DNA of 64,000 bases from an uncultured Methylococcaceae bacterium. Its GTDB lineage: Bacteria > Pseudomonadota > Gammaproteobacteria > Methylococcales > Methylococcaceae. Below are positions 28,233 through 64,000 of this stretch, piece after piece; position 1 is the stretch's first letter, and every line of letters begins with the position of its first letter. The stretch is taken from assembly GCA_903934875.1 (NCBI GenBank), contig CAIZPP010000325.1, positions 1-64,000 on the forward strand, given 5' to 3'. Under the pieces are notes generated by a model that saw only the letters and a program-made list of their open reading frames with translations, made no database searches and was not told the DNA's origin. The position numbers and the translations under genes were made by a program.

Positions 28233-28352
28233 TACAGCGTTTTTATCTTAACAAAGAAAAATAATAAAGGACACTCATTCAAACCATCCTGTGTGTGCTT
28301 TGCAAAACAATATAACTTAACAAAGTAACGTGTGATATTAAAAACGCTGTAA
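28233..28352. mobile_element. Family A palindromic element
   Basis: 120 bp bounded by TACAGCGTTTTTATCTTAAC and ATATTAAAAACGCTGTA. Its interior closely matches the copy at 58359-58481 (AATAATAAAGGAC, AACCATC, TGTGTGT, TTGCAAAA), defining a subfamily. Confidence 0.8.
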
Positions 28353-45234: not shown

Positions 45235-45336
45235 GAGCGCCAAGCACCAGCTTGGCCTTTATGGACGGCGATTCGTTTTGGAGTGTCAAGGCTTGCCTTG
45301 ACGGGCAAAGCAGGCTTTGCCACTCCATGCGTAACA
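45235..45336. repeat. Composite repeat: hairpin + family B end
   Basis: GGGAGCGCCAAGCACCAGCT matches 31980s. Then come GGAGTGTCAAGGCTTGCC, GGCAAAGCAGGCTTTGCC and GCGTAACATCAG, which match the reverse complement of 62995-63068 with few differences. A solo, probably broken family B copy. The gap 44917-45457 otherwise has no credible gene. Confidence 0.65.
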
Positions 45337-45457
45337 TCAGCCCGTCGGGCTCGTCTCTTTGCGTTGCGCCCGACACTTAATTGGGCCGAGATTTGCACTT
45401 CCGGCCCATGTGTTCAGTGTTTGCGACGAAGTGCGGTTGCGGTACAAAAAGTTACTT

Positions 45458-47748: not shown

Positions 47749-47798
47749 CAAATCGAATGTAGCTTTACTGCCGCAGTCATCGCTAGAGAATGGCAACT

Positions 47799-47862
47799 TG
47801 TGGAGTGCGGCGACTCGTCGCCGCTGGACGCAAAAGGCGGCGACGAGTCGCCGCACTCCACA
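47799..47862. repeat. Long perfect palindrome
   Basis: GTGGAGTGCGGCGACTCGTC and its exact inverse are separated by 12 bases, in the gap between rimO and intI. A family B end (GCGTAACATCAG) follows at 47887-47898. Confidence 0.6.
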
Positions 47863-47908
47863 ACATCCGGGCTACAGCCTACACGGTTGCGTAACATCAG
47901 ATCTATAA

Positions 47909-48895: not shown

Positions 48896-48969
48896 TGGGG
48901 TGATTTTTTCGTAAAATGGACGTTGAAAACCTAAGGAATGAAGGCGTAGAGTTCAAATTATACACTTAA

Positions 48970-49038
48970 CTGATGTTAGGAAGTGCCGTTTGTTGGCTGT
49001 TGTAGGGCGGCCTACAAGTGTTCGTTGCGTAACATCAG
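48970..49038. mobile_element. Family B mini-element with 7-bp target duplication
   Basis: A 69-bp element running from CTGATGTTA to TAACATCAG, flanked exactly by CACTTAA at 48963-48969 and 49039-49045. The termini match the 62995-63122 copy. Non-coding with an inner hairpin (TAGGGCGGCCTA). Confidence 0.8.
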
Positions 49039-49045
49039 CACTTAA

Positions 49046-49063
49046 GTTAAGCCGATGTTATGC
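49046..49063. other. Possible attI or attC half-site
   Basis: GTTAAGCCGATGTTATGC: the AGTTAAGCCG box is like that in aadA-type attC sites, and GTTATGC is near the core GTTRRRY. It lies about 160 bp before intI (about 85 bp without the mini-element). It is only suggestive. Confidence 0.3.
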
Positions 49064-49110
49064 GGGACAATCGAACCCAGCAATTCTCAGTTTGGCCCGA
49101 AGCTCCGCTA

Positions 49111-49175
49111 GGGTAGGGAAGGCTCTCGCCTCGCCTCCCTCCGAACCGTACGGGCGGTTTTCCCGCATACGGCTC
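49111..49175 (-). ncRNA. Group II intron domains V and VI (3' remnant)
   Basis: Read leftward, 49175-49143 gives a 33-nt domain V: AGCCGTATGC, an AAAA loop, then CCGTACGGTTC. It is followed by a domain VI-like stem (GGGAGGCGAGG / CCTTCCC) ending near 49111. This is the catalytic core of bacterial group II introns. The 5' intron is missing. Confidence 0.8.
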
Positions 49176-49192
49176 TCCATTCGGCAGTTTCC

Positions 49193-58358: not shown

Positions 58359-58481
58359 TACAGCATTTTTATATTAACAAAGGAGAATAATAAAGGACGC
58401 TAAATTAAACCATCTTGTGTGTATGTGCCTTGCAAAATGATATAACCTAAAAGTAACTCTTTGATATTAAAAATGCTGTAA
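58359..58481. mobile_element. Family A element, close to the 28233 copy
   Basis: TACAGCATTTTTATATTAAC to TATTAAAAATGCTGTA, 123 bp. The interior matches 28233-28352 in many blocks. Its right arm encodes the end of the gene at 58467. Confidence 0.8.
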
Positions 58482-58823
58482 TGCAGTGATAATGGTCAAT
58501 TGCAAAACACCCACCCCCACCACCCAGCGGATTAACTCGGCTTTGGTTTCGGCAATGTCTCTCTTAACTTCAGCCCGCAAAACCTCAATATCTTTTCTCA
58601 ACGATATTTCCAATTCCTTGATCCTGACCTCAAGCCGATTTTCCGATTCATGAATATCCCGCTTCAAGTCGGCTTCCCGCGCTTCAACATCCAGTCGAGT
58701 CGCCAGTTGCTTTTCCACGATCTCGGCAATGGCGCGGGCTTGGGTTTCGGCCTGTTGCTCGGTGAATCCCCCTGCCTTTAATTTGGTGGCGAATTCCAGT
58801 GTATCGAGAATGATGGTACTCAT
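58467..58823 (-). CDS. DUF1640 coiled-coil membrane protein
   Basis: 118 residues. TLEFATKLKAGGFTEQQAET, a long coiled coil (about 40-95) and a C-terminal span (RWVVGVGVLQLTIITAL), the DUF1640/CCDC90 layout. The final LQHF and stop are supplied by the family A arm. Confidence 0.8.
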   Translation of the reverse strand: MSTIILDTLEFATKLKAGGFTEQQAETQARAIAEIVEKQLATRLDVEAREADLKRDIHESENRLEVRIKELEISLRKDIEVLRAEVKRDIAETKAELIRWVVGVGVLQLTIITALQHF

Positions 58824-62708: not shown

Positions 62709-62969
62709 CTACTCCAGCGAAGAAATCTCCAACCGCCGCTCGATCCTATCGATGCGCTCCTTCATCCGATCAAGGCTGGCTTGCTGTCTGGCTATGTCTT
62801 CGCTAGTTCCGGCTTCGTCGCGGCGAATTCCCGCGACTGCCGATTCTAGCCGGTTAATCCTGTGCTTGACATCACTGAATTCTTGGCGCATTTCGGTCTG
62901 CAAGCCTTCGATTTGATTCCGTAGAACACGGAATTGTTCGAGTATCAAATATTCAATATTTTCAGACAT
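62709..62969 (-). CDS. Small coiled-coil protein
   Basis: 86 residues, heptad-rich: YLILEQFRVLRNQIEGLQTE, INRLESAVAGI, RMKERIDRIERRLE. Similar small coiled-coil proteins occur beside Uma2/DUF29 genes in accessory DNA. Function unknown. Confidence 0.65.
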   Translation of the reverse strand: MSENIEYLILEQFRVLRNQIEGLQTEMRQEFSDVKHRINRLESAVAGIRRDEAGTSEDIARQQASLDRMKERIDRIERRLEISSLE

Positions 62970-62994
62970 GGATGATGCTCGGTTTAATTAAAAT

Positions 62995-63122
62995 CTGATG
63001 TTACGCACGGAGTGGCAAAGCGCGCTTTGCCTGTCAAGGCAGGCCTTGACACTCCAAAACGAATCGCCGCAGGTCGGCAATCCATTACCGATGAGCGTAC
63101 AGGGGCTTGTGCGTAACATCAG
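62995..63122. mobile_element. Family B mini-element with 7-bp target duplication
   Basis: 128 bp with a perfect 14-bp inverted repeat (CTGATGTTACGCAC / GTGCGTAACATCAG) and exact TTAAAAT flanks at 62988-62994 and 63123-63129. The inner part has GGCAAAGCGCGCTTTGCC and GTCAAGGCAGGCCTTGAC hairpins. Non-coding. Confidence 0.85.
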
Positions 63123-63190
63123 TTAAAATTACAGTTCTGCGAGGTAACATCCCTGTCCTGGATACCGGCATTCCCCGCCGGTATGGTGGT

Positions 63191-64000
63191 TTATCCCAAC
63201 CCCTTTTCAATCCCTTTCAAAACCTCCGCGCCGCTAGGCAGTCCCGAATCCCGCAATTTCCGCAACGGCAGACACACCACATTGTCGCAACGGTACATAT
63301 GTCCGGCATGGTCGATGCCCGGCGCACCGACAGGTATATAAACATCTGGCTCCTGCTCGAACACCATGCCGGAGCGGCCTATCACGATGGTGGGGATAGA
63401 GGCAACAGGCGGGGTTTGCCGGGCGTTGATCGTCGCAACCCACAAAAGCACATCGGCCTCGCCATTGGCTAACAGCCGACTGGTCGAATTATGGTAAGGG
63501 TCATACTCGGGGTAGCCACGGGCGTAACTAATCCGGGTCGGATAGCCGGTCTGCCAAGCGAACACCTGGCTAGCGGTGCGGTCGCCGTCTTGGCCACCTA
63601 AAGGTAGCACGGCGGAACGGGTGGCACCGGACTGGTTCAATGCGACAACCGCCTGGCAAAGCTGCTGCACGGTCAATTCGGCGTGGGCGTAGTTCAAATG
63701 GCCTGCGGCCCATGTCACTACGCTGTAACTGGCAGACTTGAGTTTGTCGATAACTGCTTGTAAATCAGCCACGGCAATGCCGCCAATCGTTTCGGCTTGC
63801 AGCCTAACCCCTCTTGCCAGGGCATTGAGCGCGGCGGCGACCTCCGGGTAGGACTCAAACGGGCAAGGCAAAACTTGCGCCTGGCGTCCGTCAGGGGCGG
63901 TTGATTCCTGCCCCGAAGGTGCGCGGCCTATGTAAATGATTGCGCGCTGGCCGGTCTCCTGTCCGAACAGGGTTTCCTTATTCCAGACGAAGCGTTCATA
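63191..64000 (-). CDS. fhcB: Formyltransferase/hydrolase complex subunit B (3' part)
   Basis: 270 codons, open to the window edge. The C-terminal half resembles FwdB/FmdB-type molybdopterin proteins: PLGGQDGDRTASQVFAWQTG, EADVLLWVATINARQ, IPTIVIGRSGM, YIPVGAPGIDHAGHMYRCDN. FhcB is the inactive relative that helps the complex form. First in the fhcB-A-D-C order. It is separated from fhcA by about 2 kb of cargo. Confidence 0.85.
   Translation of the reverse strand, partial: YERFVWNKETLFGQETGQRAIIYIGRAPSGQESTAPDGRQAQVLPCPFESYPEVAAALNALARGVRLQAETIGGIAVADLQAVIDKLKSASYSVVTWAAGHLNYAHAELTVQQLCQAVVALNQSGATRSAVLPLGGQDGDRTASQVFAWQTGYPTRISYARGYPEYDPYHNSTSRLLANGEADVLLWVATINARQTPPVASIPTIVIGRSGMVFEQEPDVYIPVGAPGIDHAGHMYRCDNVVCLPLRKLRDSGLPSGAEVLKGIEKGLG

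Follow-up and report, generated by a model that had tools for sequence, protein, structure and literature searches.

The 128-bp element and its setting

The window, a stretch of 64,000 nucleotides from the genome of an uncultured Methylococcaceae bacterium, contains near its right end a 128-bp element that sits in a gap of 221 bases between two reading frames. The 14-bp exact inverted ends and the TTAAAAT duplication described in the original prediction were both read at 62995-63122. The element is short, non-coding and bounded by terminal inverted repeats, as expected of a MITE. The features of the window that bear on it are as follows.

62709-62969, minus strand: 86-aa reading frame flanking the 128-bp MITE (open reading frame)
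62988-62994, no strand: left target duplication of the 128-bp MITE, TTAAAAT (sequence read)
62995-63122, plus strand: 128-bp MITE (ends and duplication read, class search)
62995-63008, plus strand: left terminal inverted repeat, 14 bp, CTGATGTTACGCAC (sequence read)
63009-63055, no strand: palindromic core GGAGTG..CACTCC with two hairpins, 63014-63031 and 63032-63051 (folding, core-pattern search)
63109-63122, minus strand: right terminal inverted repeat, exact reverse complement of CTGATGTTACGCAC (sequence read)
63123-63129, no strand: right target duplication of the 128-bp MITE, TTAAAAT (sequence read)
63191-64000, minus strand: 269-aa reading frame flanking the 128-bp MITE and running off the window (open reading frame)
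48970-49038, no strand: 69-bp related MITE, with CACTTAA at 48963-48969 and 49039-49045
45266-45340, minus strand: remnant of the 128-bp class with one end only (end scan of the window)
47772-47900, minus strand: copy of a 138-bp class, left end lost (end scan of the window)

The 69-bp element had been described as a second copy with a CACTTAA duplication. The duplication is present, but the element is a related, shortened MITE rather than a copy of the 128-bp element, because only its right end is CTGATGTTACGCA; the left end is CTGATGTTAGGAA, and the two agree at 11 of 13 positions. The damaged copies at 45266-45340 and 47772-47900 had not been listed before. Several other features lie close to these elements. 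Directly past the 69-bp MITE, at 49052-49064, is a diverged end, CCGATGTTATGCG, perhaps the remnant of another insertion, and a group II intron end (RF00029) follows at 49107-49177. Inside the 69-bp MITE, TGTAGGGCGGCCTACA resembles the GTAG-type cores of L198 and L175 (uncultured Methylococcaceae genome). Another short dispersed palindromic repeat, with matches in five congeners (G002-G006), adjoins the 128-bp MITE at 63138-63193.

Copy number and distribution

The window's genome (5.41 Mb in 344 contigs) contains at least 433 exact occurrences of the 13-base end CTGATGTTACGCA, and a reversed-pattern control gave none. Because each element has two ends, this count corresponds to roughly 220 elements. 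The sequence CTGATGTTACG occurs exactly at least 476 times in the same genome. For the 128-bp class there were at least 41 matches, with 40 of 255 candidates scored. For the 138-bp class, the 40 scored candidates of 322, which may be the best ones and many of which lie at contig ends, were 98-100% identical to the query, and this identity suggests recent amplification of the class. The copy number falls within the published range for bacterial MITEs, which extends to 711 for ERIC according to the accessible part of PMC10969869.

At least one exact CTGATGTTACGCA end was found in at least 33 of 101 genomes (the window's own and 100 relatives), and the seven genomes of the genus had between 7 and at least 433 exact ends. 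Among named genomes, at least 90 stretches had exact ends 95-125 bases apart. The 80 listed loci of this kind represent 28 genomes, among them Thiotrichales, Parabeggiatoa, Methylococcaceae, Chloroflexi, Bacteroidetes, Opitutaceae, Elusimicrobia and Latescibacteria, and the same 13-base ends range over methanotrophs, cyanobacterial plasmids, Bacteroidetes, Chloroflexi, Elusimicrobia and Latescibacteria. The 128-bp class is also present, at 87.5% identity, on a contig of Candidatus Methylumidiphilus alinenensis (L197), which makes a relative of that organism the probable source of the window. No element with CTGATGTTACGCA ends 95-125 bases apart turned up when viral contigs were scanned for exact matches. 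The 2.4-Mb genome G089, from the same order, has at least 149 exact ends together with 27 transposase matches, of which many are short or lie at the end of a contig. The 13-base end was not found in print in the literature searched; in the methanotroph MITE literature, the portion of PMC4853749 at hand holds no description of the 128-bp element.

Target-site duplications and an empty site

We surveyed the flanks of elements whose exact 11-base ends were separated by no more than 700 bases and which had a minimum of 12 bases of flank left and right; all others were dropped. Exact 7- or 8-bp duplications flanked 27 of 34 elements in the window's genome (longest exact repeat 7 bp in 20, 8 bp in 7, 6 bp in 1, 4 bp in 1, none in 5), although these rows are not fully independent: several elements sit in copies of one other repeat, which is why some sites recur, the common site TTAACAAA three times. 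In the named genomes the same was true of 64 of 92 elements (7 bp in 46, 8 bp in 18, 6 bp in 3, none in 25), and the single element of one other relative had an 8-bp duplication. When flanks were mispaired, the left of one element with the right of another, about 1.3% of the pairs matched over 7 or 8 bp, and therefore the presence of a duplication at both elements of the window is not due to chance. The pooled 7-bp sites (n = 66) gave the consensus TTAWTAA, with 49 to 56 of 66 sites agreeing at each position. The 8-bp sites (n = 26) were more variable; 6 matched TTANNTAA and 16 ended in TAA. The target duplication originally proposed is thus upheld by this survey of target-site lengths, but its constant length of 7 bp is not. 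Copies without a duplication, which the original prediction had treated as counting against it, do occur, since 7 of 34 and 28 of 92 elements had no exact 7- or 8-bp repeat, but most elements had one. The exceptions could reflect decay, recombination or nesting.

We took 165 elements with at most one mismatch per end, 107 of them with a 7- or 8-bp repeat, and compared their joined flanks with all collected loci. At L233 (contig C218), a 138-bp MITE copy inside a dispersed repeat is flanked on both sides by TGATATAA. Another copy of that repeat lies in the window, is 95% identical over 119 bases, and has a single TGATATAA and no insert:

58359-58484, no strand: dispersed-repeat copy, empty counterpart of the L233 insertion (flank comparison)

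A 127-bp copy in L003 follows the same scheme when compared with L290 and L042. This second repeat family has received insertions in at least L003, L016, L017 and L233. The family (TACAGCRTTTTTA..TAAAAAYGCTGTA) is itself MITE-like and is present in the window at 28233-28352 and 58359-58484. For the window's own 128-bp element, no empty site was found; each of the other six genomes of the genus conserves the downstream gene, and the matches begin no earlier than query base 891, past the element on its 3' side.

A partner transposase with the same ends

Two unpaired ends in the window's genome run into a transposase frame, on contig C157 (243 aa to the contig end) and on contig C185 (140 aa, truncated). 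With the 351-aa protein of a congener as the query, residues 233-351 were found at the end of contig C42, 97% identical and adjoining the other end. The transposase gene flanked by the same ends, proposed as a check at the outset, was found, but in this genome only in pieces: no single contig holds a complete gene, with the parts on C157 and C42 stopping at contig ends and that on C185 truncated. The MITE and the DDE transposase have their ends in common, as an element and its autonomous partner should. The reading of the duplications as a sign of true transposition is borne out by the two surveys (27/34 and 64/92), the empty site and the transposase gene with the same end.

The partner protein matches Pfam families DDE_Tnp_1 and DDE_5 and scores 352.9 bits (L063) against NF049921, 'IS701 family transposase', with L066 at 338.9 and L065 at 264.3 bits, all above the cutoff of 250. 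The closest solved structure by sequence is the Tn5 transposase (E 0.0065). The likely transposase of the 128-bp MITE can be named by family. A transposase match at E of at most 1e-60 was present in 5 of 369 genomes drawn from the class, the window's genome included.

Both ends and both flanks were readable in 15 insertion sequences of the clade; L063, L067, L082 and L303, cut by contig ends, were left out, and in L070, L304 and L305 the script found no suitable transposase frame. Exact duplications were present in 8 of the 15, some of them with variant ends. Three had 7-bp duplications and exact CTGATGTTACGCA ends (L066, L127, L129), and four had 7-bp duplications and variant ends such as CTGACCTTACGCA and CTCACCTTACGCA (L128, L130, L134, L135). 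The eighth, L084, is 1758 bp long with exact CTGATGTTACGCA ends, an interrupted gene and an 8-bp duplication read from the flanks. The other seven (L065, L068, L124, L125, L126, L133, L302) had no duplication.

Taken together, these comparisons identify the 128-bp element, with a probability that we put at about 0.93, as a non-autonomous DNA transposon (MITE) of a YREK DDE insertion sequence of about 1.1 kb, by which it would be moved in trans. The observed basis consists of the shared ends, the duplications, the empty site and the pieces of the partner gene in the window's genome, together with relatives of the partner elsewhere that have the same or close ends, about half of them with 7- or 8-bp duplications. 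Mobilisation in trans, the chemistry of movement and present activity are what we infer. The 13-14-bp ends of the MITE are also those of a roughly 1.1-kb insertion sequence whose DDE transposase, about 351 aa long and with a YREK motif, falls within NF049921 but in a clade apart from ISAba11. A full copy of this transposase elsewhere in the cell, past or present, would supply the protein, which would bind the MITE ends in trans and move the element. Insertion would take place at AT-rich, TTAWTAA-like sites, and repair of the staggered joint would duplicate 7 or 8 bases. Known bacterial MITEs (Correia, ERIC, Chunjie and others, in the available text of PMC10969869) are likewise short and geneless, with terminal inverted repeats, direct repeats and tens to hundreds of copies, but their ends and partner differ from those found here.

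Relation to ISAba11 and IS701

The nearest named relative of the partner is ISAba11. Could the 128-bp element simply be a MITE of the ISAba11 family, to be classed under that name? The two groups fall under the same NCBI model, NF049921, each has an insertion sequence of about 1.1 kb with one DDE transposase of about 350 aa, their ends have a TTACGCA core in common, and one relative is annotated as 'group ISAba11 transposase'. However, an HHEK motif, which the title of Rieck et al. 2012 reportedly assigns to the ISAba11 family, is present in ISAba11 (L131), L132 and L136 and missing from all 12 proteins of the present clade, which have YREK in its place; L079, a 5-bp row of NF049921, has neither. 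ISAba11 and its relative L132 have TAGGACTTACGCA ends and 5-bp repeats, a length given for ISAba11 in the accessible part of PMC7885321 as well, whereas the present clade has CTGATGTTACGCA ends and duplications of 7 or 8 bp. We considered that the published 5-bp repeat might be a miscounted 7-bp duplication and dropped this idea, as L131 and L132 both show 5-bp repeats. An Acinetobacter member of the present clade is only about 25% identical to ISAba11. In a tree of 16 rows, the seven 7-bp rows stood apart from the 5-bp rows, ISAba11 among the latter, with 98/98 branch support; the tree was rooted at its midpoint, six rows had no label, and one 5-bp row (G026) was very long and is unsure. Classification under ISAba11 is accordingly highly improbable. 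As judged by motif (YREK, not HHEK), duplication length (7 or 8 bp, not 5) and side of the tree, the clade stands beside ISAba11. We found no name for this YREK clade.

IS701 proper is a more distant relative. The clade matches its model, NF033540, weakly, with scores of 66.2, 77.3, 55, 97 and 80.2 bits that all lie below the cutoff of 150. IS701 makes a 4-bp duplication.

The interior folds into a palindromic core

None of 200 shuffles folds as well as the whole 128-bp element (z -4.85), whose fold includes the pairing of the ends and a 47-base module with two hairpins. We repeated the folding on interiors from which the outer 16 bases had been removed. An interior z below -3 was obtained for 53 of 100 elements of named genomes compared with 9 of 99 flank controls, for 19 of 49 elements of the window's genome compared with 5 of 47, and for 5 of 5 elements of other relatives compared with 0 of 5, copies within one genome not being independent. 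The median interior z was below -3 in 18 of 28 genomes. Places in these genomes that lack terminal inverted repeats, some of them at contig ends (L147, L212), were left out of the counts. Most hairpin pairs were invariant across 46 rows of the 128-bp class, and one pair was T-A in 41 rows, C-G in 4 and broken in 1, a change that hints weakly at selection on pairing in the core.

The core pattern of the 128-bp class occurs 110 times in the window's genome and 24 times in six congeners, one of which has none. We then asked whether an end, with no more than 2 of 11 bases mismatched, lay within 120 bases of each place. In the congeners, 20 of the 24 places were examined, and ends lay on both sides in 7, on one side in 7 and on neither side in 6; of the 10 examined among the 110 in the window's genome, 7 had both ends and 3 had one. 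Some of the places without ends may have had ends that decayed. A tally of class matches inside MITEs was set aside, as the 138-bp matches include the ends and the choice of loci biased the 128-bp figure.

These observations could instead describe a REP- or BIME-like palindrome that is kept for a role in RNA or DNA and spread by recombination, with the transposon ends as a mere bystander. A fold better than every shuffle, a hairpin pair of which both bases changed in 4 of the 46 rows, and similar cores without recognisable ends at 6 of 20 places in relatives would all fit such a role. The duplications, the empty site and the near-identical 138-bp class argue against it, as they indicate that the whole unit moves, and scans for promoters and terminators inside the element found no more than in shuffles. 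We regard this explanation as improbable and retain the non-autonomous transposon.

Related cores between unrelated ends

Two genomes contain palindromes of the type GTCATTGCGAG..GAAGCAAT: the Elusimicrobia genome of L157 (G466), with 258 occurrences, and the Cyclobacteriaceae genome of L187 (G467), with 34. We examined the first 32 places in listing order in G466 and, with the 34 matches grouped, 23 places in G467, using loose thresholds of at most 4 mismatches in 13 per side for CTGATGTTACGCA-like ends and 3 for GTGTCTCTTTAGC-like ends. In G466, 23 of the 32 examined GTCATTGCGAG palindromes lay between two ends, 9 of them CTGATGTTACGCA-like and 14 GTGTCTCTTTAGC-like; the remaining places had one CTGATGTTACGCA-like end (3), one GTGTCTCTTTAGC-like end (3) or another arrangement (3). 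Loci L307-L368 of this genome include the palindromes within the second end type, GTGTCTCTTTAGC. In G467, two CTGATGTTACGCA-like ends were present at 10 of 23 places, one end at 3, and another arrangement at 10. At four of these last 10 (L316, L334, L336, L342), the GTCATTGCGAG palindrome is enclosed by an inverted repeat of a third type, STGAGTATCCGCTTC, that has direct repeats of 10 bp. At random positions under the same thresholds, both CTGATGTTACGCA-like ends were found at 24 of 1339 positions in G466 (one end at 43, GTGTCTCTTTAGC-like ends at none) and at 27 of 1149 in G467 (one end at 88). Because random positions also yield one-ended cases, the one-ended palindromes mean little. An exact direct repeat was present at the set boundaries in 5 of the 14 GTGTCTCTTTAGC-like pairs (8, 8, 8, 9 and 10 bp, the 9 within an A run), and the boundary of this element is provisional.

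One explanation is that the cores arose within MITEs as ordinary stuffer and resemble dispersed palindromes by convergence of hairpins. MITEs often fold into hairpins, and the median interior z was above -3 in 10 of 28 genomes. This reading is already weakened by the finding that, within the single genome G466, GTCATTGCGAG lies between ends of both the CTGATGTTACGCA-like and the GTGTCTCTTTAGC-like type, and by the core of the 138-bp class, which in the window's genus also lies between other inverted repeats (L022, L197, L213). We consider it doubtful.

Another explanation is that MITEs may carry along palindromes for which no transposase is known. CGTC and GTAG REPs are dispersed, tagged stem-loops, often arranged as inverted dimers. 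By eye, cores in other genomes appear to bear these tags, and the window's core, GGAGTG.., has neither. Cores such as CGTCATTGCGAG.. and GTAGGGCGGCC.. resemble, by eye, the tags of the GTAG- and CGTC-tagged REPs described in PMC3733652, but the inverted repeats around them look like transposon ends, and some of these have direct repeats as well. The available text of that study reports no transposase gene for CGTC REPs; it notes that some REP dimers are nested in longer palindromes in A. variabilis, T. roseum and H. neapolitanus, without calling these palindromes transposon ends. Our search for literature on REPs together with MITEs found nothing beyond this study. Tentatively, and at somewhat less than even odds, CGTC- and GTAG-like REPs would be cargo of MITEs, with a core exchanged between MITEs that have unrelated ends and each its own DDE transposase. 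The insertion sequences that happen to be active in a lineage might then carry its REP families, and the 128-bp and 138-bp MITEs of the window would be two cases, a possibility that we hold no more firmly.

If the cores are truly cargo, CGTC REPs would have a mobiliser, of which the accessible part of PMC3733652 reports none, and the question would become testable. The CTGATGTTACGCA-type ends around palindromes scattered in distant bacterial genomes may mark one route by which such repeats spread. For the element of the window, a very abundant repeat family is now tied to a transposase clade, and its duplication length is unlike that of the nearest named relative.
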